NCBI RefSeq assembly: GCF_026151205.1
Contig: NC_087082.1
Span: 17,889,401 to 17,949,400 of the forward strand
Origin: Bolinopsis microptera
Lineage: Eukaryota; Ctenophora; Tentaculata; Lobata; Bolinopsidae
DNA length: 60,000 nucleotides
Direction: 5' to 3'
Position numbers and translations under genes: made by a program. Shown here in pieces: positions 5,339 through 37,576 of this stretch. Under the pieces are notes generated by a model. The model made no database searches. It had not been told where the DNA came from and was given only the letters and a program-made list of their open reading frames with translations. Each line of letters begins with the position of its first letter. Within the stretch, counting starts at the first letter, position 1.

Positions 5339-6343
5339 ATGGCACCAGTCAACGTTATTCCAGCGCTGATGCCGGGTCAGTCTATTCAAGATTGGGGAAG
5401 ACTGTTTAAGCGAGCAACGGCACTATTTGCATCAGAGAAACAGAAAATTGACTCTCTTCCGGTTTACGTTTGCAGAAATGAAGGAGAAGTGGAGATCGCA
5501 TTACTGGTTGTAGAAGAAAATACTGATGATGATCTAGATAAAGCACTCAAAAGGTTGAGCGAGCTTGTGGATGGTAAACCATCACGGGTTCTAGCGGCTC
5601 AAAAGTTCTTTGATTGTCCTGTTACTGGGGAGCTCAAGACTACATTCTTCATCTTGAAGAAATTAGGGAAAGAAGCAGTATTTTCAAATGATGTTGTACT
5701 GCTGAGATTCTTAAGTCTCATACCCTCAGGAGTTAAGTTTCATGAAGATAACAAGGCAAAGATAAAAGCGGATATGACGGATGCGGAATTACTGGAAATG
5801 TTTGCGTTGCTACAGCCACAGCTAGACAAAACCCAAAACCATACTAAGCAGGAGTTGCAGATTAACATAAAGCAAGAGAAAGAGGACGGTTTCGTCTTCG
5901 CAGCAGATTTGGAAGAGAATCAGAGACCTACAGACTACACCGGAGAGTTAGATGCCTTGAAAGGTGAATTGGACTCCATTAAGCACTACCTGTTAGACCA
6001 GCATGAAGAGAACTGGACAGAGGAAAGAGAATGGGATGAAACTGAAGAGGTGTATTATGGAACAGAGAACAGGCAAAGAAGCACAAGAAGATGCTATACA
6101 TGTGACAGGCAAGGTCACATTGCCACTCAATGTTTTAAACGTAAATGCAAGGCATGTGGTAAGCTGGGTCACAGTACTCATGAATGTGAGAAGAAGAAGT
6201 CAGGAGGATACTCAGGAGGATACTCAGGATCAGGAGGATACTCGAGAGGATCCTCAAGCTCAATGGGACACCCAGAGGGGCAGTCTAGAGGAAACAAACA
6301 ACGTCCGCAGCAGAAAGACAATGGGAGAAGAGCAAACTTATGA
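5339..6343 (+). CDS. gag: Gypsy Gag with two CCHC zinc knuckles
   Basis: A 334-residue ORF starting with ATG 51 bp after the 5' LTR. The N-terminal two thirds is a capsid-like, mostly helical region without clear motifs. Residues about 252-265 (CYTCDRQGHIATQC) and 271-284 (CKACGKLGHSTHEC) are paired CX2CX4HX4C zinc knuckles, as expected for nucleocapsid RNA binding. The C-terminus is Gly/Ser/Arg-rich. The ORF is intact and closes with a single TGA at 6341-6343, and pol follows in the same frame. Gag should form the particle that packages the element RNA. Confidence 0.92.
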   Translation: MAPVNVIPALMPGQSIQDWGRLFKRATALFASEKQKIDSLPVYVCRNEGEVEIALLVVEENTDDDLDKALKRLSELVDGKPSRVLAAQKFFDCPVTGELKTTFFILKKLGKEAVFSNDVVLLRFLSLIPSGVKFHEDNKAKIKADMTDAELLEMFALLQPQLDKTQNHTKQELQINIKQEKEDGFVFAADLEENQRPTDYTGELDALKGELDSIKHYLLDQHEENWTEEREWDETEEVYYGTENRQRSTRRCYTCDRQGHIATQCFKRKCKACGKLGHSTHECEKKKSGGYSGGYSGSGGYSRGSSSSMGHPEGQSRGNKQRPQQKDNGRRANL

Positions 6344-7733: not shown

Positions 7734-8633
7734 GGGGGGGGGGGGGGGGGGGGTGGTTCACCCTGATTTTTTTGTGAAACTTGGTTTCGAGATAGCAGTT
7801 GACCAACAAATTAAGACTGGTGACCGAACTTTTGAGGGGGTCCCCGACCCCAACCGCCAAACGGTGCCCGTGGGGCAGCCACGCCCATATTTGGTCCAAA
7901 TTAGGCCCAATTTAGCCAAATACCCCGAACATGCCCAAAACCCAGATTTTATGTGCTCTACTTGTAGCTAGTGGTCCCCTGAACAAGTATATGAATTTTC
8001 ATCAAGATTGGGCAAAAAATGAATGAGTTATGAGCCAAAAACCATATGACCATATTTGGGCATACGTACCAAATTTGATCGATTTTGGCCCATAAATTGG
8101 TCAAATATCAATATTTTTGAATGAAACCAACTTTATATGAAAGGTAAGCTTATACTACACATTCTCTATGATTATCAGCTCAGTATCTACCTAACAGTGG
8201 ATTCTGTGTTCAAATTTTTTTTTTTATTAAATACTTTTCAAATTTTACAGAGTACAGCAATAGATGAATATAAAATAGAATCGTTCAAAATATCGCCCCC
8301 ATCTGTAAAATATGATGGGCACCCAAACACGGTAAACACATAGTGAACTATGTCCGCAGTAACTTGGACCCATTACATCGAATTAATCTAAATCCAAAAA
8401 TTTATGAAAAACTATTTAATAACAAACAAATCCATGGTGAATAACTGTGGATATATAGTCAAAAATGGTATTTCAATACGTCAAATTCCAGATACATTAG
8501 ATACAGGTCTGATATGGTCATTAATGTGTGAGGTGTGCGGGTGAAGTGTGATATGATGTTGAAAGTATAGGAAGGTAGATAAAAAAATTAATAAAACAAA
8601 AATAATAATAATATGGGGAGCAAAGAGACTAGG

Positions 8634-11600
8634 CTAGGCTGTTGTTTCACTATCCAATAAACATTTCCATAGATGCTTAGTGACCTCAGCTTTGAAAACA
8701 CTTGTAGACACAATCTGTCTTACCTGTAAAGGGAGTCCATTCCACAGTATATGAGTTCTGTAGAAAAATGATTTTGCCAGTGGGCTATTTGAGGTACATA
8801 AGGTGTGTGAATTCTGACTTAACTTAGGTAAAATTGATGACACAATAGACAGACTGTCGAGGTGGCAACGTCTTAGTCGAGAAGTGCCCTGATATAAAGT
8901 GAGATAGTGAGGCAGCCATACAGGAATTAAATTGTTCAGAACTTTGTGGAAAAAAATAAGATCATTCAAGTCAAACTTTTGAGACAAAGGGAGAATGTCG
9001 ACAAGCTTGCACTTTTTGACATATTGCTCAGGTGGATAACTGCGGCCCTCTTCAGACAGAATCCATTTAATAGCTCTCTTTTGGAGACTTTCTAATTTAT
9101 CACTAAGTGATTTATTACAAGGGCGCCAGATTATGGAACAATTTTCGAATTGGCTACGAACCAGGGAGAGGTAAAGCGCCCGGCGACGTTTCTGATCAAT
9201 GACAATATGGCCATCTCTTCTGACCATACCAAGTTGTTGGCAGGCCTTAGTATAAATTCTGTCGCACTGACTATTCCAACTGAGCTTAGGAGTAACATCG
9301 ACTCCAAGATCTTTTTCTAACTCTACATACACAAGAGGAGAGCCATCAAGATTATATGCGAATGGAGGAGATAAAGATGGTTTTCCTGAAACAATAAGCA
9401 CTTTACATTTTGCTGGATGAAATCGCATTTTGTTTCTAAGTGCCCAGTCAGAGAGATAGTCTATATCCATTTGTAAATTGGTATTATCAGAAGATGAATG
9501 TATTTTACGCCAGATTTTTGTATCATCGGCATACAAAACAATATCAGTATTAGCCGAAAGGCCAAGAGGAATATCATTGATAAACAATACAAAAAGTAAG
9601 GGACCAAGGATAGAGCCCTGGGGGACACCAGAATTAACTGAGAGGGTAGATGACATCTCATTACCAATAACCACTCTTTGGTAACGGCCTTGAAGGTAAT
9701 TGGTAAGAAATTTGAGAAGTGTACCATCAATGTTATATAAGGTCTTTAGCTTATGAAGAAGGATATCATGATTTACAGAATCAAATGCCTTAGCAAAATC
9801 AAAATACACAACATGATTGATAATGTTTTCGTTAAGAGACAATGCCAGGCTATCACAAAAATCAACCATATTGGTTGTGCATGACTTGTGCTCTAGAAAA
9901 CCATGCTGCCTGGGATCAAGAAGGGTACTTGTCAAAGAAAGCAGTTTACGTTTAACAATGCGCTCAAAAACTTTCATGACTAAACAAGTAAGGGATATTG
10001 GTCTATAGTTTTCACCCTCACTTTTCTTACCTTTCTTAAATATTGGGACAACATTTGCAAGTTTCCATTCTTGTGGAATGTAGCCGCTGTTGTAGGATCC
10101 ACGAAAAATGCATGTTAGAGGGTAAGCTAAACCTACGGAACAATTTTTTAGAATTTTACCGTGTATGCCATCTGGTCCCTGGGCTTTATTTGAATTAATA
10201 TTTGAAAGAAGCTTACGAACATCCCGATGATCGAAGTCAATATCAAAATCAACATCATTGACATAGGAGATGTCAGTGTCATAAAGTGAAGGATCCGAAA
10301 ACTGGTTATAAAAGAAAGAATTGAAAAGTTCAGCTTGATCTTTGGGATTGAACCGAAGCTGTCCAGAATAACTAACACAATTAGGAATACGGCAGGAGTT
10401 AGATTTATACTTAACATGTGACCAAAACTTCTTAGTTATAAGCGCTGGATCATCACTATTAAAAAGATTATCTCTTATTTTGGCTGATGAGAGCCTCTTA
10501 AAATCTTTACGGCTAGTAACAAACTTTAACTCATCAGAAATAGAACCAGAAATTTTAAATTTAGCTCTGAGTCTATCTTTTTTACGGCATGAAGAAAAAA
10601 GTTCACTATCGAACCACGGGGGTTGGAACTCTGATTTAATAACTACTTTAGGAATATGTATATCAACTAAATTCATAATGCAGTCTTTAACTAACTTCCA
10701 AGACGAATCAGGATCTAGGCATTCTAGGACTTGCCAATTAATCGAGCATAATTCACGATTAATCATGTCCCAGTTTGCTTTCTTAAAATTATAGATTTTA
10801 CGTTTAGGAGTTTTCTTACGGGAAAAGGAGCTTTTAATTGAAAAAGTGACAGGAAAATGATCAGATTTGCACACGGAATGAGGATCACAGACATTCAAGT
10901 TATCGATTGTGTTATCATAATTACTGAGAAGAATGTCTAATGTATTACCACTTTTATGGGTGGGTGATGTGATCAACTGGGAGAGAGAAAGATCACTGAA
11001 AGAATCTATGAAGGATTGCTCAATAGGTACGGTACTGGATGAAGATAGCCAGTCTGTATGGGGGAGATTAAAATCACCAATAACATAGATTTTAGGGGGA
11101 TTCTTTTTGGAAACTAGCTTGCGAATATAACTAACTATGACATCATGATTAGGTAACCCAAGAGTTCCTACTCTATAACAAGTACAGATTACAATACTCT
11201 CTTTGTTAGGAAAAGAAATTTTAACGGCAAGCATTTCTGCACCTAGGCTAACTGGTAGTCGGGTTGTAGTGGCGTCGAGATCAGACCGAACAGCCAAAAG
11301 AACACCACCTCCATTTTCCCTAAACTTTTTAGGGTTATTAGGATCTTGAGGATGAGTCTTTCTCGTGCGGTCATTGCGGAAGATTTCATATTGAGAAGAA
11401 GGAAAGATTTCGTTGCTAGAAATAGATTTTTTGAGCCAAGTCTCATTTAGGGCAATTATGTCAGGCTGCTCTATGTTAGCAAAGGATTGAAGTTCGGAAA
11501 TCTTATTACCATCAAAAAGGGGATGGGAGGAGCTTAGGTTACTGAAAGGAATGAGACCTTGGACATTTTGGTAGAGTACAGATAGGGAGTTGGGACCTGG

Positions 11601-12149
11601 ATTAAGCATAGAAGGATTAACAAGAGTTATCAAAAGAAAGTTAAGAGAGAAAACCCAAAGAATGAATAAAGAGACTAGACGCCTGAGGCGGCTGGAATAC
11701 TTGACTCTATTCATCTTACCAGGGAGAAGAACATTTCTTATAAACCATGAGGAGATAATTACAAAGAAAAGTTTGATGTGGGAGCAAGCAAGAAATGGTA
11801 TAAGATAACGTGGGCTGTCAAGGAGTAGAGAGGAATGAATATTAGAATCTAGGGGGAATACGGTGTTCATGGACCTAACCATGGAGAGAAGAATTGGGAG
11901 AAAGTAAGTCATGATGAGAGAATAGAAGAGAAACATATGATTATGATAATTGTAGTTGATGTGTGGGGTGTATGGAGACTTAAATGTGTAAATTTTGTTA
12001 GGTATAAACGTGTTGATATGTATAAGTGCATTTCTTGACTGTGTACGAGGCCTTTTGCATGCAAAAAGACCTATTCTAAGTTTAAACGATTCATTGTCTA
12101 ACATATTGGAAAATGGACAGTGACCGAATGTACCTGAAATGGGAGGCAT
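8634..12149 (-). CDS. LINE ORF2: endonuclease and reverse transcriptase
   Basis: A 1171-residue ORF. Residues about 70-180 contain several hydrophobic stretches, and MLNPGP at 181-186 resembles the end of a 2A-type NPGP peptide. An APE-type endonuclease follows (about 188-440) with its key residues: N195 in YQNVQG, E236 in LNETWL, Y325 in CYRVG, D359/N361 in GDFNLP and SDH at 429-431. The RT region has NYRPISLTCLVMKVFERI, FDFAKAFDSV, GVPQGSILGPLLF and the catalytic VLYADD near residue 872. The C-terminus has the usual LWNGLPLQVRQ motif. No stop or frameshift is seen. The protein would nick target DNA and prime reverse transcription (CR1/Jockey group). Confidence 0.93.
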   Translation of the reverse strand: MPPISGTFGHCPFSNMLDNESFKLRIGLFACKRPRTQSRNALIHINTFIPNKIYTFKSPYTPHINYNYHNHMFLFYSLIMTYFLPILLSMVRSMNTVFPLDSNIHSSLLLDSPRYLIPFLACSHIKLFFVIISSWFIRNVLLPGKMNRVKYSSRLRRLVSLFILWVFSLNFLLITLVNPSMLNPGPNSLSVLYQNVQGLIPFSNLSSSHPLFDGNKISELQSFANIEQPDIIALNETWLKKSISSNEIFPSSQYEIFRNDRTRKTHPQDPNNPKKFRENGGGVLLAVRSDLDATTTRLPVSLGAEMLAVKISFPNKESIVICTCYRVGTLGLPNHDVIVSYIRKLVSKKNPPKIYVIGDFNLPHTDWLSSSSTVPIEQSFIDSFSDLSLSQLITSPTHKSGNTLDILLSNYDNTIDNLNVCDPHSVCKSDHFPVTFSIKSSFSRKKTPKRKIYNFKKANWDMINRELCSINWQVLECLDPDSSWKLVKDCIMNLVDIHIPKVVIKSEFQPPWFDSELFSSCRKKDRLRAKFKISGSISDELKFVTSRKDFKRLSSAKIRDNLFNSDDPALITKKFWSHVKYKSNSCRIPNCVSYSGQLRFNPKDQAELFNSFFYNQFSDPSLYDTDISYVNDVDFDIDFDHRDVRKLLSNINSNKAQGPDGIHGKILKNCSVGLAYPLTCIFRGSYNSGYIPQEWKLANVVPIFKKGKKSEGENYRPISLTCLVMKVFERIVKRKLLSLTSTLLDPRQHGFLEHKSCTTNMVDFCDSLALSLNENIINHVVYFDFAKAFDSVNHDILLHKLKTLYNIDGTLLKFLTNYLQGRYQRVVIGNEMSSTLSVNSGVPQGSILGPLLFVLFINDIPLGLSANTDIVLYADDTKIWRKIHSSSDNTNLQMDIDYLSDWALRNKMRFHPAKCKVLIVSGKPSLSPPFAYNLDGSPLVYVELEKDLGVDVTPKLSWNSQCDRIYTKACQQLGMVRRDGHIVIDQKRRRALYLSLVRSQFENCSIIWRPCNKSLSDKLESLQKRAIKWILSEEGRSYPPEQYVKKCKLVDILPLSQKFDLNDLIFFHKVLNNLIPVWLPHYLTLYQGTSRLRRCHLDSLSIVSSILPKLSQNSHTLCTSNSPLAKSFFYRTHILWNGLPLQVRQIVSTSVFKAEVTKHLWKCLLDSETTA

Positions 12150-12246
12150 AAAATTGAGAAAAAGATTAAATCAGAGATTTGTTTGAGTTTTAATTTTAGG
12201 CGCAACGTCATAATCAAAATATTAAATGGAAGAAAAGATCAAAGAT

Positions 12247-12576
12247 TTAAATTCCCAGAAGATTATTTACAACCCTGTCAAAACTGTGTTCGTTTACAAC
12301 AAACTTAAGCCAAGTGGACAGTAAACCTACTCCTCTCATGTTGAGATGAAGCCAATCATGGTATAGAAGTTCATTACATGATCTAAAGTCTCGAGTTAAA
12401 AAGACTGAGAAACAGTCTAAGAACACGCAATTATTATTTAGGCATAAGTCTTTAAGTAGATTATTAAAATCTAGAACATTCTTTGCTATGTAGGAATATA
12501 AACATTTAATAGGAAGACAACATTGGATAATTACTAGCAAGAACCCGTCTAACCGTAAAGTGGTGTCAAGGCTCAA
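12247..12576 (-). pseudogene. ORF1 C-terminus: SGNH hydrolase block V
   Basis: This fragment carries the end of the SGNH/GDSL hydrolase fold: LPIKCLYSYIAKNVLDFNNL, then YHDWLHLNMRG, the Asp-x-x-His pair expected in block V. Its N-terminal half is at 12856-13070. The two halves would be contiguous without the insertion at about 12541-12848, so ORF1 is split rather than made of two genes. The stop at 12247 lies about 100 bp before the ORF2 start. Confidence 0.8.
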
Positions 12577-12848
12577 GAGACTAAAATAATTATTACCTAT
12601 TTAATTAGCGTTTTTGACACCACTTGGGGTACCAAATTTTGGGCTCTAAAACTCCTATTTCTTGGCCAATTTTTTATTTTTTCATACTGATTTGGAGGCC
12701 ATTAAAGCATTTGAACCAGTCAAAAAAGTTTCAGTTGTATATCTTTTACGGTTTTGGCGGAAATTTGCGTTAAAGTTGATGCCGTGGTGTCAGTAAAATG
12801 GCACGGATAAATAAATATATATATATCGTCTCGCTTTATATATAGTAA
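12541..12848. mobile_element. About 300-bp insertion in ORF1 with TGACACCAC inverted repeats
   Basis: This segment separates the two halves of the SGNH domain. It contains TGACACCAC at 12615-12623 and its inverse GTGGTGTCA at 12784-12792. It ends with CGTCTCGCTTTATATATAG (12827-12845). The same terminal motif recurs at 55030-55048 (inverted) and 58066-58084. A candidate target duplication GATAATT flanks it (12533-12540 and 12849-12855). However, GATA also follows the motif at 58066, so the duplication is uncertain. No coding content. Confidence 0.65.
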
Positions 12849-13946
12849 GATAATTGCAGCGGGAAATAACTGCTTAGTGGTGTCAATTAATTCAGTAAGA
12901 TACTTCCTAAGGAACTGAACCCCATACTTAGAATGTTTAATGTCATTTGTACCAACACTCAATATAATTTTTTCAATATCGTCAGCTTCTGCAGCTGCAT
13001 GAGTTTTATGAAAATTATGAATGTTTTCAGTGATGTCTCTAATTTTTGCACCACTTTGAGACACATTGATTACTTTCCTTCCCCGGAATCCCAACTTATT
13101 TGTCCGTACGAATTTTGTCATTGACGTACCAAACAGGACAGTGGTTTTCCTGCTCTTCGGTTTTCTTGGAGTATTTCGGTAGTAAAGGGTTGGTGTTGAG
13201 GTGGTGGTGGGCGGCATAGGAATTGTAGTGCGGGCAATCTGCTCCTTGACTACATTTGTATCTGTCTTTGGTATCTGGCAGCGAAAAGATAAGCTATACC
13301 GAGTCCCCTTAACTGAGCTCTCTGCACGAACCTTGTGAAGACAATATTCCTGACACCCCGGTTTCATAATATACAAACTACAGTCCTTTGGGGTGATATA
13401 GCATTTACTGTTACATCGCTTATCCCCATTTTCTGGAATTATGTCGATGGTCCTCTCAGCTCCAAATGAAACTACATAAATACCTTGCGACTGGTCAAGA
13501 GACACCTCGTCGTCGTTGTGGTACCTAGTTGCACAAGAACCAGACTTGTACATGCTTGCTAGGCATGAGTTTAGCTTGCAGCCAAACTTGGAGTTGATAT
13601 CATGCATAAGCTCTGATATCCCAGGATAATTTAAAATATCGATTGGCTCCTTAGTCGTGGTGTGTCCATTTGAGGAAGACCATACATATTCTTCTCCAGT
13701 CGAAGTGAGCCACTTTGTGGCAGTTTTCACAGCAGTTTGCTTGGCCATAAGTGTTTCAAGTTCAGACATCAACGTGCCATGTTGAACACTCTTGTTCTGA
13801 ACAAAATCTGAATGCAACTCCAAGAAGTCCTCGCATTTAACAGAATTTCTCTTAAGTTTCATGACATTCTCAACACTGGCCTTGAGAGCTTTCAGCTCAT
13901 TTAATGAAAACGAGTTTAAAACATTGGTAACAGAATTCAGATCCAT
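12720..13946 (-). CDS. LINE ORF1: AlkB-like Fe(II)/2OG dioxygenase plus SGNH hydrolase
   Basis: A 408-residue ORF. Residues 1-75 are helical with coiled-coil character. Residues about 85-225 form an AlkB-type dioxygenase, with the iron ligands H143 and D145 in YHNDDE, H204 in CLHKV, and the 2-oxoglutarate/AlkB arginines R216 and R222 in GTRYSLSFR. The intervening IYVVSFGAERTIDI matches the AlkB strand pattern. After a Pro/Thr-rich linker (about 240-265) comes an SGNH hydrolase: VLFGTSMT with nucleophile Ser275, and SVGTND at 331-335. The last roughly 40 residues are read out of inserted DNA, and the true C-terminus is at 12576-12247. Esterase-type ORF1 proteins are known in CR1/L2 LINEs. The fused AlkB domain is the unusual part and suggests repair or demethylation of element RNA or DNA. 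Confidence 0.88.
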   Translation of the reverse strand: MDLNSVTNVLNSFSLNELKALKASVENVMKLKRNSVKCEDFLELHSDFVQNKSVQHGTLMSELETLMAKQTAVKTATKWLTSTGEEYVWSSSNGHTTTKEPIDILNYPGISELMHDINSKFGCKLNSCLASMYKSGSCATRYHNDDEVSLDQSQGIYVVSFGAERTIDIIPENGDKRCNSKCYITPKDCSLYIMKPGCQEYCLHKVRAESSVKGTRYSLSFRCQIPKTDTNVVKEQIARTTIPMPPTTTSTPTLYYRNTPRKPKSRKTTVLFGTSMTKFVRTNKLGFRGRKVINVSQSGAKIRDITENIHNFHKTHAAAEADDIEKIILSVGTNDIKHSKYGVQFLRKYLTELIDTTKQLFPAAIILLYIKRDDIYIFIYPCHFTDTTASTLTQISAKTVKDIQLKLF

Positions 13947-14348
13947 AGTGATGTGAGGAAGAGGGAGGAGAAAATGGCGGTGAGGGAGGAGAAAATGGCG
14001 AAGTCAATACTGTAGCCCAGGAAGTAGATGCGTTGCTTAGGATACAAACGGTCACGTCATAGTCTCTTCTATCGCTTTGACATTGGGACCTAAAATTATT
14101 TGTTATATAGTAGTGTTGAAAGTATTAAAACTGTAATCACAAAAAATGAACAAAATCGTCCATATCTCAGTTCGCGATATTTGCAAAACTGATTTCGCTC
14201 AAAACAATAGAACTCAATAGGGTTTCAATATTTTTACATGAAATTTTCAGAATCAACGTAGAATCGCATTTCGACCTTAAGTTTTGTATTGAAATTTTAA
14301 GTTAGGCCTTTAAAAAAATTTGGCGGCCAAATTAATTTGGCCGCCAAA

Positions 14349-14979
14349 GGAGAGTAAGGAGTGGAAGCAAGGAGACCGAGTGCTAATAAAGCGTACACAT
14401 GGTAAACATAAAAAGATCTCGCCTAAATGGGTTGATGGACCATTCCATATCGTTAGGAAACTCAGCGATGTCAACTGGGAAATCACTGATTCGAAGGGTA
14501 AACATAGAATTTATCACAGTAACCTGATGATGGACGCAGGCACCAGAAAAGAACCTGTTGCAAGCAGAACATCAACAGATACTGAAGAGGTGGAATCAAC
14601 AAACACACCAAGACTCCATGAGATCATCATGCCATCGTTACCCACTATCAGTACCATGAAGGCTCCGGATCCTACACTACTGATATCTACTACACCTACA
14701 TCGCCGGTGGAAAACCTTTTGGATAAGACACTAATAGACACCCTTGATATGCGGAGATTTAGGGAACACGTTCTGTCGGAAAGCCCTGAAGCAATAGAGG
14801 ATTGCCTAAGGGATCCTGAGGATACCATTAATGAGACGGATATCGCTACTGAGGAGAGTACCGAAACTACGGAAGAGGTCGCTACTGCAGAGGTTATACC
14901 TACTTCATCTAATGCTACACGCTCAGGCAGAGTCTCTAAAGCTGTAATAGGTAATAGACTCATTGACCAGATCGAATAG
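14349..14979 (+). pseudogene. pol: Gypsy Pol C-terminus (integrase GPY/F module and tail)
   Basis: An open frame resuming directly after the 30-bp palindrome. It begins ESKEWKQGDRVLIKRTHGKH and contains WVDGPFHIVRKLSD, the GPY/F-type C-terminal integrase module, then an acidic Thr/Glu-rich tail to the stop at 14979. The catalytic DDE core and zinc-binding N-terminus are missing, deleted at the foldback junction. The 400 bp after it are AT-rich noncoding sequence up to the 3' LTR. Confidence 0.85.
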
Positions 14980-21336: not shown

Positions 21337-24300
21337 GTTTACCTACTCATTTTGCGTCAAATTTCTCTCTTATTTTGCGTCAAATTTCTCTCTCTTCGTT
21401 TTAACACTAACAGTACTGCACCCCTTGTACTTGTAACCTGATGCCCGACCATATAGCCAAGGCTCAGACGGCCTACAATGAAATTGTCGATATATTGGAT
21501 AGTTTCCCGACTATAAATAAAAGCAACAGATCGAAGGAAGACAGTCAAAAGGCGTTTGATAATTCAAAGCTGAAGATTTTCAACCTCATGAAGTCAAGTA
21601 TTCTGCCTGTTATCACTGATAAGGGTGCTACATCATACACTTACATTGTAAAGGAGAATGTGCGAGTATCGGCTGAGATCAAGGATTTGCAGCTCAAAAT
21701 CAGAGAGTTGCAAACGGAAAACAAAAGCTTGAATGCCCGAGCAGACACGCTAATTGGGACCTATAGTGACGTTGTTGGTGGAGTCAAGACTGTTTTGGAA
21801 AACTGGAAGCAAGATCTCGATGTATCAGGTATAGATATGAAGAAAGAAGTGAAGCAGGCCGTTAAAGAACACCTAAAAGAGATTATGACCGAAACTGTCT
21901 CCACGATAGTCAAAACAGACAAAATGACAAAAACATTTGCTGACGTTGTGAAGAATACAGAAAGTATTATTGGCCGCGAGACGAAGAAATGTTTCGAGAA
22001 CAGTTTAGCCTCTGCGCTTAAGGAAAGCCAGTCTGAGATTGTATCTCAGACCACAGCTCGACAGGAAGCTGATGTGTTCGACAAAGAGAAGCGTATCAGG
22101 AACGTCGTGATCACTACTGTTCCTGAGAGCTCACTAACAGAGATAAAGGACAGGATCGCAGCCGACAAGCTGATAGCTGCCACGGTTCTAGATGTCACAA
22201 CCGACCAGATAGAACGCTGCTACAGAGCTGGTCCCCCTCTCGGGTCTGGCTCTTATAAGGAAAGAACAAAGCCACGACCCCTTGTTGTTGTGCTTGCGAC
22301 ACCAGATCTTGCCCGTAGCAAGCACAAGTACGGAAATGGCTGCAAGGTTTTCAAGGATGGTGAGGACTACTGGATAAATCCAGACTTATCCCAGGCTGAA
22401 AGAAGGGCGAACTACGAGGCGCGGCAAAGGAGACGGGAGCGGACGAAGAACAGTGATTTCAAGGGACTATTGACAGGTGGTACGGAATCGGAAAACTCCG
22501 ACAACGTTGCGACCGGTTAGCTGTCTCTAGTTATAATTCTAAACTAAGAAACAATGCTAGTCATTTTCTGAAAGTTTTTTATTCGAATGCAAATGACTTG
22601 AAGAATAAAATCAGTGAACTGCAAATTGTAACCGAATCCAGCGACTGCAAGGTTTTGGGAATTACAGAAACAATGTTCAGTGCAGATGTGTATGATGCAG
22701 AGGTAGCATTAGCGAACTTTAGGCTGTATAGAGTAGATCGATTAACGGGGAAAGGTGGTGGTTCTTGTATATATGTGCATGATTCTATCCAATCTCACAA
22801 TGTAACAATAAATGTACCTGATTGCATATGTGTCATGCTAAATTCTGATTGTATTGATATTGCATTATTTGTTATATACCGATCCCCTTCATTAACAATC
22901 GATAAGTGTCAATCAATGTTATCTAATCTGTCCGTAGCGATTGAAAATCTAGCCCCTAATACCGAACTGATCATGATGGGAGATTTCAATCTTCCTGATG
23001 TTGTGTGGGATTTAGGTGTAGTTAAATGTCCGAATAATTCAATTAATCAAAAATTCCTGATTCAACAGTGTTATCTTGATTTTTTCGCAAAACATGATCT
23101 CAGTTGGGTTATCGGAGACGATGTTAAAACTCGCAGAAGGAAGGGTTTAACAACAGTGCAATCGTCAACTCTTGACAATGTTATGACTTCATACCCCGCC
23201 ATATTTCAGGAAGTTCAAATAACCGCACCGCTGGGAAAATCAGACCATGTGGGAATTATCAGTAAGTGGTCAATTGCTAACCATGATGAATATGTGACTC
23301 AACAGAAGAAGAATTGGTCAAAAGCAAACAAAGACCTAACCATTGATACAGCAGGGCCGCTGCAATGGAGTGCTAATCATGACTTGACTATTGAAGAGCA
23401 CTGGAATCTGATTCAGGCCAATGCCAACACCATTGCTGAAGCTGTTCCAGTCGTCAAATTGAGGATAAATCGTGCAGGTGCAATAAAATCACGATCGGTC
23501 TGGGACAAACCATGTCTAATCAAGGCACGGAAGCTAAAAGAAAAACTGTGGTCTATTTTTGAAAGCGACCCGACATCAAAAAACCTGAATCATGCACTAC
23601 ATCAGCAGGGTGCTTACGAGAAGAAGCAACAGCAGCTCATGATATGCTATGAGAATAAAGCAGCAGCCCAGCTAATAATAAATCCAAAAGCTTTCTACAG
23701 CTATATGAACTCCAAGCGCAAGATTAGGGCTGCAATATCTGGAATCAGAGATGCTAGTGGGGATGAACTCCACTCAGCACATGATATGGCTAACCAACTT
23801 GGGATTTTCTTTGAGAGCACGTTTGTAAAGGAGAATCAGGCCTCAATACCTGACCCACTACCCGGTGACAGCGCAAAGGAGACGATTCCTGACCTGAAAT
23901 TCAATACAAGTGTAGTTCAAGATCAACTTCGTAAAGTTAACATCTGGAAATCCGTTGGACCTGATGATATACACCCCAAGCTTTTGAAAACACTAGCCGA
24001 AAACAAACAGTTTGCTGATTCAGTCACAGCACTGTTCCAAAAATGCTACAACGACGGAAAGATTCCCGAAATCTGGAAGCAAGCAAATGTCACTGCATTG
24101 CATAAAAAGGGGGATAAATCCCAAGCCAGCAACTATCGCCCTATTAGCCTAACGTGTGTTCTTTCCAAGATCTTTGTGAGGTTTTTAAGAAACCATATTC
24201 TAGCTCACGTATCCCCCATGATTGTGAATGAACAACACGGTTTCCTACCAAAAAGATCCTGCGTCTCGAACCTCCTGGAATGTATGGACATTGTCAGTGA

Positions 24301-26263
24301 GATACTAGAGAAGGACGGGTCAGCTGATATACTGTATCTCGATTTTCAGAAGGCTTTCGATTCTGTACCACACAAACGATTGCTGAGAAAATTACAATCC
24401 TTTGGAATATCTGGCAACACCCTTGCAGTCGTGGAAGACTTTCTAACAGGAAGAACATTTCGCGTCAGGGTTGGATCATCATTTTCTAGAGTGTTTGCTG
24501 TAACATCCGGGGTCCCTCAAGGAACCGTGCTGGCCCCCTGCTCTTCCTGCTCTTCATAAATGATCTCCCTGATGGAATTGAGAGCTTCGTATCACTCTTT
24601 GCTGACGATCTTAAGCTAGTAACGAGCACAGCTAAGCACAGTTTTGCACAAGATGATATACTGAAACTCAATGCGTGGGAGAAGGAATGGCTCCTAAGAT
24701 TCAATGTGAAGGATGGCAAGTGTAAGGTACTACATATTGGGCGTAACAATCCAATGCATGAGTACTTCATGAATGGGGAATGCCTCCCCCAAGTGAAGTC
24801 AGAAAAGGATCTTGGAGTTCTAATTACCAGAAACCTGGACTGGAGTGACCATATAGATAAGTCCGTGAAAAAAGCAAAGTCTGTTATAGGCTGGATCAAA
24901 CGAAGCTTGATCTGCCGTAACAAATTTGTTATGCTAAATGTCTACCGAACTCTAGTTCGACCTCACATCGAATACGCTGTGCAAGTGTGGAATCTACCAG
25001 CAGAGCACGGAAACTGGAGGACTATTAAGAAGATAGAAGATGTTCAGAGAGAATTTACACGAATAATCGACGGGATTGGTATCCTACCATACGATGAGAG
25101 ACTGAGAATCCTCTAGTTAACAACACTACTGGAGCGCCGTATGAATGGTGATCTTATTGAAACCTTTAAAATAACGACGGGTAAAGTGGACTATGGACAA
25201 GATCTTTTCAGGATATCACGTAGCGGTACCAAGATCCTAAAAGATAAAAGAGGAAATCAGGTCCTCAGTAACCGGGTTGCCAATTACTGGAACAAAGTAC
25301 CAAGTTCGGTTAAAGAAGCCAGTTCAGTAGACGCATTCAAAGCTCGACTTCAATGTTATAAAAATGAACTGATAGCGAGTGGAGCATTATCAAAGGGTCA
25401 CTTCTGGGATCTCAGCGAAACCTTGATGTCAAAAATAAATACATGTGAGCATGATTCATATGCATATTTCATGTCTAATAACCCATTGATTGCTAAATAC
25501 CTAGGAATCAATGTATCTTGATTGTTAAATTCAGAATTACATGTTAACGTCCTTAAAATAATTAATCATTACATGTTCCGGATAGGAACATTTTTCATTT
25601 TGAAAATATTGTGCGAACTGCAATAGCGTAGAGTGCAGTTGGGTTTTAAGTTTTGTCGAGATGGCTATGTGGCCATAATCCTATTATTATTATTATTATA
25701 ACTTTTACTCTTTCAGTATTTATGTATTTTCCTTTGCGAGGGGTTTAAGTTGATCGTATCAGGTTTGCAGTCAGAATTCTCAATGATGACCCACACATAA
25801 TGGGCTATTGACCCGCATCGATTGATTGTTTCCTCTGTTCATTAAACTTAGTTTAATTTGTCCTAATTAGTGATTCCACAGGTGGTGGATCTGATATTAG
25901 CAGAATATCCGGGAGTAAAATCTGACGATAAGTTGAACTATTTCTGGATGGGGCTGCAGTGAGTGATAAAAAATGTTTACTATGGTCTCGTTCATGTATA
26001 TACTTTATTAGGTTTAATCCATAACCGTTATCAAAATCACTAGTATATTTCTATTGACGTACCACAACACTCCTCCAGAGACCTGACAAAGACATCAGCT
26101 CTGGAGTGGACAGACAATTTCATTCCGGTAAACTATGCGAATATATCAAACCACGACGTCTTTAACTGGGGCGAGAAATACGGAACAATCAATAAAAACT
26201 CTGGTTTTTACGCGATGAAGAGTTCAGAAACCGCAACACATTGGGGGGTGTGCGGCAGGGCAG
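21197..26263 (+). CDS. C-type lectin-like domain of the same gene, split by a LINE
   Basis: Exons 21197-21336, 25882-25958 and 26079-26263. Exon 1 has Cys-containing ACLKSCEDKN, then GWTLASIPTRYHNQK, the classic start of a C-type lectin fold. The next exon gives VVDLILAEYPG and NYFWMGLQ. The third gives ALEWTDN, FNWGEKYG, SGFYAMK and THWGVCGRA. These match the WIGL and WxD strands and the last Cys of the family. The usual EPN/QPD calcium motif is not evident, so sugar binding is uncertain. Phases join correctly. A 4.3-kb CR1-like LINE lies in the intron between the first two exons. The domain would be extracellular, downstream of the peptidase domain. Confidence 0.75.
21441..22520 (+). CDS. 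LINE ORF1 protein (coiled coil, RRM-like)
   Basis: A 359-residue intact ORF. Residues about 60-110 form a Leu/Glu/Lys coiled coil (IKDLQLKIRELQTENKSL). From about 220 there is an RRM-like region (RIRNVVITTVPES, then RPLVVVLATPDLA) followed by a basic tail (ANYEARQRRRERTK). This is the usual layout of an RNA-binding LINE ORF1 protein. It has no AlkB or SGNH domain, unlike the LINE at 8600-13990, so two distinct ORF1 types coexist in this window. Confidence 0.8.
   Translation: MPDHIAKAQTAYNEIVDILDSFPTINKSNRSKEDSQKAFDNSKLKIFNLMKSSILPVITDKGATSYTYIVKENVRVSAEIKDLQLKIRELQTENKSLNARADTLIGTYSDVVGGVKTVLENWKQDLDVSGIDMKKEVKQAVKEHLKEIMTETVSTIVKTDKMTKTFADVVKNTESIIGRETKKCFENSLASALKESQSEIVSQTTARQEADVFDKEKRIRNVVITTVPESSLTEIKDRIAADKLIAATVLDVTTDQIERCYRAGPPLGSGSYKERTKPRPLVVVLATPDLARSKHKYGNGCKVFKDGEDYWINPDLSQAERRANYEARQRRRERTKNSDFKGLLTGGTESENSDNVATG
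22540..25521 (+). pseudogene. LINE ORF2 (endonuclease-RT) with frameshift and nonsense mutation
   Basis: The endonuclease starts near FYSNANDLKNKISEL (about 22577) with ITET, VIYRSP, MGDFNLPD and SDHVG. The RT has NYRPISLTCVLSKIF, LDFQKAFDSVP and SGVPQGTVL. At about 24535 one base appears lost within the GP-LLF motif, shifting the frame. The catalytic SLFADDLKLV is read in the next frame. In that frame a TAG at 25114-25116 interrupts the C-terminal region, which continues to 25521 (ANYWNKVPSSVKEAS). Two lesions make ORF2 inactive. Otherwise it is full length for a CR1-type ORF2. Confidence 0.88.
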
Positions 26264-29876: not shown

Positions 29877-30704
29877 TTAAGATTTTCCTCTTATCTTTTT
29901 TCTTCCGGGGTCCAGATGGCTTGATTCGTGGACGGTGGGAGGAAGGGGGCAGTAGTCAGAGTCAGAGTCAGAGTCAGAGTCAGAGTCAGAGTCAGAGTCA
30001 GAGTCAGAGTCAGAGTCAGAGTCAGATTCAGAAGTTTCAATGTCAGAATCGGAGTCTGATAGTGATGAGCTATTTCCATCATCAGGAAGCCAATGCATAT
30101 CATCTTCACTATCAATATTATCATGTTCAGTTGGAGCATCGTTCAAATTAGGATCCTGATCCACCGTGAGGATTTCCGAAGTATCTTGGCTGGGAGCTTC
30201 GTTTTCATTTTCCGCAAAATCTTCACTACTGCCTGCCGCAGGCACTGTGTAGGGATACGCACTGGTGTCTATAGACGAACTAAACTCGTGCATTTCCTTC
30301 AGCACCCGCCGATTTATTCGTGCTCTCTTGCTAGGAATATCGTCTTGCTCCGAAAGGACTGCACCCCCAATGAACAGCTGCAACTCGTCCCTTTCTGGGT
30401 GGGTATTGGGAACAGCGTCTTCCCGAAGTCTTAGCTTCATACGTTTTCTGTAGCCAGTTGTCTTCATGAAGTTAAAATCACCAAAATTATAATCTGAATC
30501 ATTGAAGTGGTCCGAACACACCTTGTAAGTTTTCATTTTGGTCTTCGAAACATGTTCAGGTTGTCGATTTATCCTCAGGTCCCATCTTTTTCTCATTTTG
30601 TCGTCTGTGGGAACGCAGTGAAATATCAAAAACTGTCGTCCAGGCCGCTTACTGTTCTGACCACATCTGTGTGTACAACCCCCTACCACACATGAAGAAG
30701 GCAT
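29877..30704 (-). CDS. THAP-domain protein with acidic Ser-Asp repeat
   Basis: The start is set at the ATG at 30704-30702 because THAP domains begin at the N-terminus (MPSSCVVGGCTHRC). The C2CH zinc ligands are visible: CX4C in the first residues and CSDHF near residue 60. RKRWDLRIN supplies the conserved Trp, and TYKVCSDHFNDSDYN ends the zinc motif. The middle has a basic patch (KRARINRRVLKE). The C-terminal third is acidic, with about 13 Ser-Asp repeats encoded by a (GAGTCA)n tract, and the last residues are basic (GRKKIRGKS). THAP domains bind DNA and occur in P-element-type transposases and host regulators. No transposase domain remains, so either is possible. It lies wholly inside the insertion in the RTE LINE. 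Confidence 0.8.
   Translation of the reverse strand: MPSSCVVGGCTHRCGQNSKRPGRQFLIFHCVPTDDKMRKRWDLRINRQPEHVSKTKMKTYKVCSDHFNDSDYNFGDFNFMKTTGYRKRMKLRLREDAVPNTHPERDELQLFIGGAVLSEQDDIPSKRARINRRVLKEMHEFSSSIDTSAYPYTVPAAGSSEDFAENENEAPSQDTSEILTVDQDPNLNDAPTEHDNIDSEDDMHWLPDDGNSSSLSDSDSDIETSESDSDSDSDSDSDSDSDSDSDSDSDYCPLPPTVHESSHLDPGRKKIRGKS
29955..30026. repeat. Hexanucleotide repeat (GAGTCA)n
   Basis: About 12 near-perfect units. On the minus strand they encode the alternating Ser-Asp stretch of the THAP protein. Being a multiple of 3, unit gain or loss keeps the frame. Confidence 0.95.
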
Positions 30705-30912
30705 CTTGGAGTCCGGATTCGTGTAGAAGTTATACTTGTAGCTGCTAACAACCTTATATTTCCATAGGAACCACTGTACTGCAAGAATATTTTTTGGATG
30801 ACAGGTCATCGAATAATAATGCGTATTCTGATACGATATTATTTATAGAAGGTACACCACGTTCAAAAGACTGTCGATCTCACGAATTTTACCATCAGAG
30901 ACCATCATTAAG

Positions 30913-33283: not shown

Positions 33284-34289
33284 AAAAGTTGGGTATTTTT
33301 TTGTGAAACTTGATTACGAGATAGCAGTTGACCAACAAACTAGGACCAGTGACCAAACTTTTGAGGGGGTCCCGGACCCCAACCGCCAAACGGTGCCCGC
33401 GGGGCAGCCACGCCCATATTTGGTCCAAATTAGGCCCAATTTAGCCAAATACCCTGAACATGCCCAAAACCCAGGTTTATGGTGTTCTACGTGTAGCTAG
33501 TGGTCTCCTAAACTCGTATATGAAATTTCATCAAGATTGGACAAAAAATTACTGAGTTATGAGCCAAAAACCATATGCCCATATTTGGGCATACGCACCA
33601 AATTTGGTAGATTTCGTCCCATAAATTGGTCAAATATCAATATTTCTGGATGAGACTAACTTTATATGAAAGGTAGGCCTAAATTACATATTCTCTGTAA
33701 GTTATAGCTTTATATCTGTTTAAATGTGGATATTAAGGCGAAAATACCCCAAACAATGAACAAAATTGCCCGTATCTTCGTTCGCGATATTCGCGGAATT
33801 GATTTCATTAATTTGGAAATAACTCAATCAGTTTTCAAAATTTTTGCATGAAATTTTCGGAATCGACTCTAAATCGCATTTCCACCTTATTCTAATAAGC
33901 CGATTTTTGATTAAGGCCTCCAAAAAAATTTGGCGGCCAAATTCCAAAATTTGCCTGGCAAAATTCAGAATTTGGCCGCCAAGTTTTGGGCATGTTCAGG
34001 GTATTTGGCTAAATTGGGCCTAATTTGGACCAAATATGGGCGTGGCTGCCCGCGGGTACCGTTTGGCGGTTGGGGTCCGGGACCCCCTCAAAAGTTCGGT
34101 CACTGGTCCTAGTTTGTTGGCATGGTCAACTGCTATCTCGAAATCATATGGTTGGTGGGCTAGACAGTGAAACACGCAAATGTAGTGTATACTTCGTTAA
34201 ATTACATCATTCGTTAAATTACATCATTATCTCGAAATCAAGTTTCACAAAAAAATACCCATTGGCCCCCCCCCCCCCCCCCCCCCCCC
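33284..34289. mobile_element. Complete foldback element with C-tract end
   Basis: The left arm starts GTATTTTTTTGTGAAACTTG (about 33292). The right arm is its inverse, ending at about 34262 in CAAAAAAATACCCATTGG and then a C24 tract (34266-34289). The arms match over about 190 bp. The right arm carries a roughly 95-bp extra segment with a 17-bp tandem duplication (CGTTAAATTACATCATT). The centre (about 33930-33990) holds TTTGGCGGCCAAATT and its inverse. It has no transposase ORF and is non-autonomous. It interrupts the RTE LINE. Confidence 0.8.
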
Positions 34290-34972: not shown

Positions 34973-37566
34973 GCAGTGACAAACCAACTATTGATCATGC
35001 CTCCATTACACCTTCTGATGCTTCCATCAACTCTGGATCCAAGTACAGTGTTGAGTGCGGGAATGGATACACTATATCAGGGGCTGCAGAAATAACCTGC
35101 AATGATGGAGAACTTTCGACTAGTCCAACATGCCTGCAACAGTGTTCCAAACCAACCATTGATGAAGCAACAATCACCCCTGCTGATGCTTCTATCGACT
35201 CTGGATCCAAGTATACTGTTGAGTGTAAGTACTTAGGAAGGACACACTATATCAGGGGCTTCAGAAATAACCTGCAATGATGGACAATTCTCCACTAGTC
35301 CAACATGCCTTCAACAGTGTTCCAAACCGACCATTGATGAGGCAACTATGTTAAACCAACTATCGATCATGCCACTATTACACTTTCTGATGCTTCCATC
35401 AACTCTGGATCAAATACACTGTTGAGTGCAGGAATGGACACATTATATCAGGAGCTGCAGAATTAACCTGCAATAATGGACAATTTTCCACTAGTCCAAC
35501 ATGCCTTCAACAGTGTTCCAAACCGACCATTGATGAGGCAACTATGTTAAACCAACTATCGATCATGCCACTATTACACCTTCTGATGCTTCCATCAACT
35601 CTGGATCAAATACACTGTTGAGTGCAGGAATAGACACACTATATCAGGAGCTGCAGAAATAACCTGCAATGATGGACAACTTTCCACTAATCCAACATGC
35701 CTTCAACAGTGTTCAAAACCGACCATTGATGAGGCAACTATGTTAAACCAACTATCGATCATGCCACTATTACACCTTCTGATGCTTCCATCAACTCTGG
35801 ATCCAAATACACTGTTGAGTGCAGGAATAGACACACTATATCAGGAGCTGCAGAAATAACCTGCAATGATGGACAACTTTCCACTAATCCAACATGCCTT
35901 CAACAGTGTTCAAAACCGACCATTGATGAGGCAACTATCACCCCTGCTGATGCTTCTATCAACTCTGGATCCAAGTACACTGTTGAGTGTAAGGAAGGAC
36001 ACACTATATCAGGAGCTGCAGAAATAACCTGCAATAATGGACAACTTTCCACTACTGTCTCCGCTACTAAAATGTTTAATGAGCCCAATCACTCATCACT
36101 TAACAGTTTAATCTTCAAAGTGAGTTGTACAATCTAGGTTGTTTTAAGTAGCTGTTGATAGTGTAAAACAGGAGTGACCTGATCGTTTTCATAATTTCGC
36201 TTTACAATTTGTAAACTAGCACTGCCATGGGGTTCAAAAAGGGTCATTGTAAGCCTCCAGCGTAATGGTCCTAAGTCTCTGCCCCATGCGGTGCCTGTCA
36301 GCATCAGCTAACAGAATTGCCCTTACATAACGATCAGGTCACAAATTAGGTCCCTATAATGATTTAATATTGTTGAATAAAGAGATTTGAATATAATATT
36401 TGTTTTATTCTGAATATTAATTTTATTCTGACTAGTCCAAAATGTGTTAAGAACTCTGAAAATTGTGTTAAACCAACTATCGATCATGCCACTATTACAT
36501 GTTCTGGTGCTTCCATCAACTCTGGATCCAAATACACTGTTCAGTGCGGGAATGCATCAATTATATCAGGGGCTGCAGAAATAACCTGCAATAATGGACA
36601 ACTTTCCACTAGTCCAACATGCCTGCAACAGTGTTCTAAACCGACCATTGATGAAGCAACTATCACCCCTGCTGCTTCTATCAACTCTGAATCCAAGTAC
36701 ACTGTTGAGTGTAAAAAAGGACACACTATATCAGGGGCTGCAGAAATAACCTGCAATGATGGACAACTTTCGACTAGTCCAACATGCCTTCAACAGTGTT
36801 CAAAACCGACCATTGATATTGCAACTATCACCCCTGCTGATGCTTCTATCGACTCTGGATACAAGTACATTGTTGAGTGTAAGGATGGACAAACTATATC
36901 AGGGGCTGCAGAAATAACCTGCAATGATGGACAACTTTCGTTAGTCCAACATGTCTTCAACAGTGTTCCAAACCGACCATTGCTGAAGCAACTATCACCC
37001 CTGCTGATGCTTCTATCAACTCTGGATCCAAGTACACTGTTGAGTTTTAAGGAAGGACACACTATATCAGGAGCTGCAGAAATAACCTGCAATGATGGTC
37101 AACTTTCCACTAGTCCAACATGAAGGACACACTATATCAGGGGCTGTAGAAATAACCTGCAATGATGGAAAACTTTCGTTAGTCAAACATGTCTTCAACA
37201 GTGTTCCAAACCGACCATTGCTGAAGCAACTATCACCCCTGCTGATGTTTCTATCGTCTCTGGTTCCAAGTACACTGTCGAGTGTAAGGACGGACACACT
37301 ATATCATGAGATGCAGAAATAACCTGTAATGATGAACAACTTTCGACTAGTCCAACATGCCTTCAACAGTGTTCAAAACCGACCATTGATATTGCAACTA
37401 TCACCCCTGCTGATGCTTCTATCGACTCTGGATTCAAGTACACTGTTGAGTGTAAGGATGGACAAACTATATCAGGGGCTGCAGAAATAACCTGCAATGA
37501 TGGACAACTTTCGTTAGTCCAACATGTCTTCAACAGTGTTCCAAACCGACCATTGCTGAAGCAACT
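34973..37566 (+). pseudogene. Tandem intronless sushi-domain array, frame-broken
   Basis: It starts at a TTTCAG acceptor (34973, phase 1). The unit is about 168 bp, one 56-residue module: KPTIDEATITPADASI, then GSKYTVEC, GHTISGAAEITC and SPTCLQQC. The first two modules are open to about 35226, where a 7-nt insertion (TACTTAG) breaks the frame. Later units carry shared lesions: a lost base in CTGGATCAAATACAC and a truncation joining GCAACTAT to GTTAAACC. At least a dozen full or partial units are recognisable. A TIR element interrupts it at 36175. Either the array is decaying, or some lesions are assembly errors. The array should have encoded an extended extracellular stalk. Confidence 0.75.
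36175..36341. mobile_element. Small TIR element, copy 2
   Basis: Bounded by the same 13-bp inverted repeats as the copy at 3029-3204 (TGACCTGATCGTT and its inverse) and close to it in sequence, with about 10 bp fewer. Similarity extends to about 36158-36412. It is embedded in the sushi array. Confidence 0.75.
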
Positions 37567-37576
37567 ATCACCCCTG

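Follow-up and report, generated by a model that had tools for sequence, protein, structure and literature searches.

In a window of 60,000 nucleotides from the ctenophore Bolinopsis microptera (NC_087082.1, positions 17,889,401 to 17,949,400 of the forward strand; "the window" below means this whole stretch), we identified a long interspersed nuclear element (LINE) whose first open reading frame (ORF1) encodes an AlkB-type dioxygenase domain fused to an SGNH hydrolase domain. As in APE-type LINEs, this ORF1 is followed by an ORF2 with endonuclease and reverse transcriptase (RT) domains, and the element is presumably CR1/L2-like, an affiliation we take from motifs only. Its features are as follows.

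8203..14117, minus strand: LINE (non-long-terminal-repeat [non-LTR] retrotransposon), ~5.9 kb; both flanks match a continuous, element-free paralogue at 33295-33940
13947..14117, minus strand: 5' untranslated region (UTR); a 19-nt sequence occurs twice without mismatch (21-bp spacing, 13961-14000) beside the ORF1 ATG
13725..13946, minus strand: ORF1 residues 1-74, N-terminal region, probably helical (by eye); mean pairwise identity of 26% in the 88 two-domain rows of the family alignment
13269..13724, minus strand: ORF1 residues 75-226, AlkB (2-oxoglutarate/Fe(II) dioxygenase) domain, predicted ALKBH2/3-like from Protein Data Bank (PDB) matches
13512..13520, minus strand: H143-x-D145, predicted iron ligands, with E147 next; kept in nearly all family rows
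13335..13337, minus strand: H204, predicted third iron ligand
13281..13301, minus strand: R216-x5-R222, predicted 2-oxoglutarate-binding and AlkB-specific arginines, spaced as in the ALKBH3 alignment
13158..13268, minus strand: ORF1 residues 227-263, variable linker (16% mean pairwise identity)
12843..13157, minus strand: ORF1 residues 264-368, first part of the SGNH hydrolase (Ser275, Gly299, Asn334)
12535..12842, no strand assigned: later ~308-bp insert splitting ORF1; edges from tblastn matches, good to ~10 bases
12247..12534, minus strand: C-terminal SGNH part of ORF1 (D-x-x-H, block V) and stop, located by tblastn with the relative P0001
8634..12149, minus strand: ORF2, 1171 aa, intact (RVT_1, 2.8e-28; Exo_endo_phos_2, 9.4e-13)
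11589..12149, minus strand: ORF2 leader, residues 1-187, with three hydrophobic segments and then NPSMLNPGP
10848..11513, minus strand: ORF2 endonuclease domain
9396..10022, minus strand: ORF2 reverse transcriptase domain
8203..8633, minus strand: 3' UTR, between the ORF2 stop and the LINE border as placed from the empty paralogue

ORF1 runs on the minus strand from an ATG at 13946 to a stop at 12247 and is interrupted by the ~308-bp insert; its uninterrupted stretch (13946-12720) comprises 408 aa from the ATG. An earlier note, made from the sequence alone, had described a minus-strand ORF with H143-x-D145, H204, R216, and R222, followed by SGNH blocks I and III, with block V beyond a later insertion and an intact ORF2 in the same element. 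All of the AlkB residues were present as described. Block I (G273-T-S275), G299, and block III (G332-x-N334) precede the insert (~12535-12842), and block V (D425-x-x-H428, numbered as in P0001) was located past it, at 12534-12250. P0001 is an uninterrupted 460-aa relative with 95% identity over the first 368 residues of the window ORF1, and its layout comprises the N-terminal region (1-74), the AlkB domain (75-226), the linker (227-263), and the SGNH domain (264-460). The tblastn match of P0001 to the C-terminal part showed 89% identity over 107 residues, of which the first ~12 lie inside the insert; the end sequence of the insert also occurs at 55028-55050 and 58062-58079. ORF2 is open for 1171 codons (12149-8634) with both endonuclease and RVT_1 matches. 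The left border of the LINE is good to a few bases and the right one, set by eye, to ~25 bases (the flank aligns from 14140); no clear target-site duplication was seen at these ends, the borders being approximate in the comparison with the empty paralogue. These analyses confirmed that the AlkB-SGNH fusion lies within the LINE borders, upstream of an intact ORF2.

Searched alone against the PDB, the window ORF1 matched human ALKBH3 chains (6.6e-8) and, weakly, the esterase of zebrafish ZfL2-1 ORF1p (0.098). A profile of the 66-row family alignment (A1) matched ALKBH3 best (1.6e-18) and ALKBH2 next (2.3e-15), with ZfL2-1 ORF1p on the SGNH side (5e-11); the 30 PDB chains matched at 0.01 included none from ALKBH5, FTO, or bacterial AlkB. 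The same absence was seen with a 24-row profile (A2; 20/20 chains), which also repeated the ALKBH3/ALKBH2 order, and with the relative P0081 alone (20/20). The PDB-matched stretch covers about residues 107-226, and the domain start at residue 75 was set by conservation. Window ORF1 and ALKBH3 have in common the H..12..R..6..R spacing and a G-A-x-R-T segment, and E147 aligns with the Glu in the HSDDE segment of ALKBH3; we take the equivalent residue to contact the base. W89 is aromatic in 91 of the 92 rows with a letter there (W in 79, Y in 11, F in 1) and possibly lies in the nucleotide lid, by an assignment made by eye. On these profile matches, we classify the AlkB domain as ALKBH2/3-like.

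Pfam searches gave a more uneven picture for single proteins. The window ORF1 matched PF03171 (2OG-FeII_Oxy, 0.0035) and two GDSL models (1.8e-4 and 5.6e-4), all under the cut-offs; the GDSL matches of P0001 exceeded the cut-off (PF13472, 48.4 bits versus 32.9), and PF13472 matched 65 of the 66 A1 rows. The Pfam AlkB model, PF13532, matched neither the window ORF1 nor P0001 singly but did match 49 of the 66 A1 rows at 1e-3 (best, 2e-17). The AlkB homology proposed in the earlier note was therefore borne out by the profile match to ALKBH3 and by PF13532 in the relatives, whereas this model missed the window ORF by itself. No zinc finger or other nucleic-acid-binding domain was found by Pfam in the fusion (window ORF1 and A1 rows). 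The SGNH part of P0107 matched OSK, the Pfam domain of the germ-plasm protein Oskar, over the cut-off (5.9e-8); OSK was also matched by six of the 66 A1 rows (best, 1.1e-4), including P0072, which was under the cut-off.

A phmmer search with the window ORF1 returned 76 proteins (E-values, 1.6e-234 to 1e-13), from which A1 was built after ten partial or short sequences were omitted (P0033, P0035, P0040, P0046, P0057, P0059, P0060, P0073, P0075, and P0076). Together with the ALKBH3 match, these E-values are far removed from what chance would give. The A1 profile returned 108 proteins, giving 109 distinct proteins together with the phmmer set. All 109 were aligned; 12 lack a letter at one or more AlkB sites, and 21 are not two-domain proteins. 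The five AlkB residues (H-x-D, H, and R-x5-R) are kept in 95 of the 97 proteins with letters at all sites, a count that includes P0109 (210 aa), a lone AlkB outside the fusion family, and in 87 of the 88 two-domain rows; P0076 and P0093 are the two exceptions among the 97. Site by site, among rows with a letter, retention was 97/98 for H143, 98/98 for D145, 96/98 for E147, 103/104 for H204 (the exception being the fragment P0107), 103/104 for R216, and 104/104 for R222. On the SGNH side, S275, G299, N334, and H428 are kept in 86 of the 88 two-domain rows, with P0063 and P0090 as exceptions. Across these 88 rows, mean pairwise identity was 42% in the AlkB domain, 43% in the SGNH domain, 26% in the N-terminal part, and 16% in the linker. 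H143, D145, R165, Q199, H204, and R222 are invariant (zero entropy), and the catalytic columns are at zero or near-zero entropy while the linker varies freely. The fusion is thus deeply conserved, in a pattern that, by a protein-level comparison as distinct from a ratio of nonsynonymous to synonymous substitutions (dN/dS), is such as selection for function would yield and not that of a passenger.

The same columns bear on the idea that the AlkB domain has lost its enzymatic function and serves as a nucleic-acid-binding module, filling the place that RRM domains or zinc fingers occupy in other kinds of ORF1. An ORF1 protein has to bind RNA, and Pfam revealed no other domain for this task here; binding alone, though, does not require the Fe(II)/2-oxoglutarate residues, and H143, D145, H204, and R222 show zero entropy in the 88 rows. 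We regard a purely binding role as improbable.

AlkB and SGNH identities covary across the family (Mantel r of 0.853; none of 999 permutations reached it, the best being 0.185), indicating that the two domains were inherited as one and that the fusion is old. In a quick maximum-likelihood tree of 89 rows, 49 of the 86 inner branches had values of at least 95 in the Shimodaira-Hasegawa-like approximate likelihood ratio test (SH-aLRT), and the window copy clustered with P0001 and P0002. One relative, P0100 (706 aa), comes from a contig of 59,550 bp; PF13532 matches it in two stretches, giving it two AlkB domains, and it has a C at the E147 position.

The full locus with both ORFs was read directly in the window only, and association of the two ORFs elsewhere was approached through the sizes of source contigs. 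ORF1 protein P0006 and ORF2 protein P0128 come from equal-sized contigs (5975) in the same three sources, and ORF1 protein P0015 and ORF2 protein P0126 likewise from equal-sized contigs (5531). Among the close relatives (21 ORF1 by 25 ORF2 proteins, a subset picked after the lists were seen), there were two exact size matches, compared with a mean of 0.07 in shifted controls, of which 0 of 200 reached two. This coincidence is suggestive of ORF1 and ORF2 lying on the same contigs. The longest contig was LINE-sized (5.3 to 6.4 kb) for 17 of the 109 ORF1-family proteins and shorter than 3 kb for 54.

An accidental origin, with one LINE copy picking up an AlkB-esterase gene or pseudogene of the host, would sit comfortably with a single directly read two-ORF locus. 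We consider it extremely improbable: ORF1 lies inside the LINE borders, 88 two-domain proteins of highly varied sequence share the fusion, 17 of the 109 longest contigs are LINE-sized, and contig sizes coincide with those of ORF2 in close relatives. Capture in a single copy was rejected on the family recurrence and the LINE borders. The earlier note had named in advance, as grounds for calling the locus a chance capture, that other copies might lack the domain; instead, 95 of the 97 proteins with letters at all five sites retain the cofactor residues.

Searches of viral contigs confirmed none of the pattern matches, of which there were 3 with the window ORF1, 48 with A2, and 44 with an ORF2 alignment, A3; genome contigs searched with the A2 profile gave 0 confirmed of 56. 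With A3, 5 of 16 pattern matches in genome contigs were confirmed. Four contigs in three Poribacteria metagenome-assembled genomes (L001 to L004) are eukaryotic-type LINEs, 31 to 33% identical to the window ORF2; their host, we would guess, is a sponge. Their ORF1s resemble PHD or RRM types by eye, and tblastn gave no AlkB-SGNH match in them save one at 0.008 (P0035 to L002). The fifth confirmed contig, L005, was included in this tblastn comparison. The AlkB ORF1 therefore seems to mark a sublineage.

Five types of LINE ORF1 have been described, of which type IV contains an esterase (PMC4120745; this and the other papers are cited as their accessible text presents them), and esterase is the sole catalytic function in the types described there. 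The SGNH hydrolase is common to the window ORF1 and the type IV ORF1s of CR1/L2 LINEs, such as ZfL2-1 ORF1p (PDB 4c1b; PMC3905857, PMC4120745). In type IV proteins the esterase is preceded by a coiled coil or leucine zipper, at times with a zinc finger as well, whereas the window ORF1 has the AlkB domain in that place (PMC4120745). Plain type IV membership was rejected, given the AlkB domain upstream of the esterase and no zinc finger by Pfam; the AlkB-SGNH ORF1 is a variant of the esterase-type LINE ORF1 rather than a new kind of element. A 2014 survey of 448 elements reported esterase ORF1s in two vertebrate groups only, and its main text, as accessible, makes no mention of AlkB or an oxygenase (PMC4120745); esterases of LINE, RTEX, and Penelope elements from cnidarians and sponges have also been presented (PMC3905857). 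The earlier note did not recall this fusion as a described LINE architecture, and full-text searches of the open-access literature, partly via incomplete listings and with Repbase Reports outside their scope, agreed in finding no AlkB in a LINE ORF1.

Retroelements and RNA viruses offer partial parallels. SGNH hydrolases were likewise captured by LTR elements of bdelloid rotifers, as a GDSL/SGNH domain in ORF3, where the accessible text has no AlkB, dioxygenase, or 2OG (PMC5408684). An AlkB-family demethylase domain is found in orchid Ty3/gypsy elements, which are LTR elements with an ALKBH5-like domain in an ORF of its own, called recent by the authors (PMC9289625); the window element is a LINE with a widely diverged ALKBH2/3-like domain fused in ORF1. 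Plant RNA viruses likewise have H-x-D, H, and R-x5-R in a protein of an RNA-copying element, and the domain has been suggested to guard viral RNA against methylation (PMC544882). In those viruses AlkB is a domain of the replicase, and in the window it is part of a LINE ORF1. To our knowledge, the plant-virus AlkB proteins involve neither an esterase nor reverse transcription. The closest solved AlkB chains, human ALKBH3 and ALKBH2, are cellular repair enzymes without an SGNH domain.

ORF2 had 1069 relatives at 1e-40 or better among 8000 candidates scored, and the comparisons below use the best 120 of these. The hydrophobic segments of the window ORF2 leader are at residues 73-91, 116-134, and 159-177. 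NPGP is missing from the first 260 residues in 11 of 121 ORF2 proteins. Among the 105 proteins in which NPGP is preceded by at least 12 residues, 102 carry between one and three hydrophobic segments ahead of it (by a plain hydropathy count) and 75 read PS(L/M/I)LNPGP; 2A-type sequences, as we understand them, read DVExNPGP at this place. The leader may fit membrane work. In the Poribacteria contig L002 (1-1474), a 2A-like motif, CGDVEVNPGP, was seen upstream of the PHD-like stretch in ORF1.

From these comparisons, we infer that the likeliest role of the AlkB domain is demethylation serving reverse transcription of the element's RNA. This supports the reading in the earlier note, which had suggested that the element might repair or unmask its RNA in this way ahead of reverse transcription. 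ORF1p is, in our judgment and with moderate confidence, an ALKBH2/3-type demethylase joined to an SGNH esterase, in which the former clears methylation that blocks RT and the latter tethers the particle to membranes. ORF1p would coat the element's RNA, as presumed for ORF1 proteins; the AlkB domain, with Fe(II) and 2-oxoglutarate, would strip base methylation of the N1-methyladenosine (m1A) or 3-methylcytidine (m3C) type that stops or misleads RT; and ORF2p would then read through, copying full-length element RNA. The SGNH domain would anchor the particle on lipid membranes, a function suggested for the ZfL2-1 esterase of zebrafish, which hydrolyses a substrate in vitro and binds negatively charged lipids (PMC3905857); by analogy, the SGNH part here probably binds lipids and may cleave them. 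Common reverse transcriptases are hindered by both m1A and m3C, which AlkB treatment removes, and modifications may impede the R2 RT used in the same study (PMC12140624). More tentatively, the element could represent an old LINE lineage with a self-encoded RNA-repair and ribonucleoprotein-targeting device, in which ORF1p would demethylate the template, and the esterase and the membrane-type ORF2p leader would assemble the particle at membranes ahead of target-primed reverse transcription.

Two alternatives retain an active demethylase and assign it another substrate. According to the first, it would erase N6-methyladenosine (m6A) in RNA or N6-methyladenine (6mA) in DNA and thereby evade silencing by the host, a role suggested for the AlkB of the orchid Gypsy elements, an ALKBH5-like domain with demethylase activity in vitro (PMC9289625). 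That domain nests in ALKBH5 (PMC9289625), whereas the LINE domain is ALKBH2/3-like by profile, with no ALKBH5 or FTO chain at 0.01; because of this affinity, we rank an m6A eraser below an m1A/m3C role and hold it to be unlikely. Human L1, moreover, is helped by m6A and suppressed by ALKBH5 (PMC7873242), so that an eraser is not self-evidently useful to a LINE, a point that also bears on the role we prefer. According to the second alternative, the enzyme would act on DNA, repairing alkylated single-stranded cDNA or the nicked target in target-primed reverse transcription. ALKBH2 and ALKBH3, its nearest solved relatives, act on DNA. E. coli AlkB protects both RNA and DNA (PMC544882). On the other side, the presumed cargo of ORF1 proteins is RNA (PMC3905857), and a rare DNA lesion would seem a weak selective force for a domain so well kept; we find DNA repair rather unlikely.

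Several further observations weigh against demethylation of the element's RNA by an intact, functional fusion. The window copy's ORF1 is broken by the insert, so the whole protein is seen in relatives only. On the AlkB side, P0076 has lost H143, P0093 has lost R216, and the fragment P0107 has lost H204; SGNH residues are missing from P0063, P0090, and the fragments P0105 (S275) and P0053 (H428); databases of predicted proteins are, in addition, biased toward intact ORFs. When all 109 ORF1 and 120 ORF2 proteins were compared, contig-size matching was weak (4 matches against a mean of 1.36, with 11 of 200 shifts reaching 4). AlkB treatment raised full-length tRNA capture only modestly (PMC12140624), and the ZfL2-1 esterase has a low turnover and did not bind oligo(A) RNA (PMC3905857).

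A demethylase in ORF1, if true, would be a first sign, within the literature searched, of a non-LTR retrotransposon keeping its template free of base methylation, paralleling plant RNA viruses and a single orchid Gypsy lineage, which likewise carry AlkB domains. The possibility that RNA base methylation limits LINE copying becomes testable by comparing wild-type with catalytic-mutant protein.

The LINE interrupts a small repeat element that sits between Ty3/gypsy-like pieces. These surroundings are as follows.

5339..6343: gag-like ORF of a Ty3/gypsy-like element
from 6344: Ty3/gypsy-like protease and RT
7766..8202, no strand assigned: left flank, the small repeat element that received the LINE; 88% identity over 438 positions to 33295-33731
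14118..14330, no strand assigned: right flank, the same small repeat element as 7766..8202, aligned from 14140; 75% identity over 195 positions to 33750-33940
14320..14979: C-terminal part of a Ty3/gypsy-like integrase
33295..33940, no strand assigned: empty site, a LINE-free paralogue of the small repeat element

Next to the small repeat element lies a run of 20 G (7734-7753), at which the gypsy-like pol frame stops; from this run to 14320 neither an RNase H nor an integrase core was apparent, in an inspection that included no search aimed at them. A second LINE on the plus strand (21441-24990) comprises an ORF1-like ORF (359 aa), with no Pfam domain over the cut-off, and an ORF2 with endonuclease and RT that is 26 to 34% identical to that of the AlkB LINE. 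Elsewhere in the window, a minus-strand ORF at 29880-30809 has a THAP domain (7.4e-13) and contains a 13-copy AGTCAG repeat (29954-30032), and tandem arrays of ~168- to 196-bp units at 34980-37576 have a sushi/CCP-module-like reading by eye.

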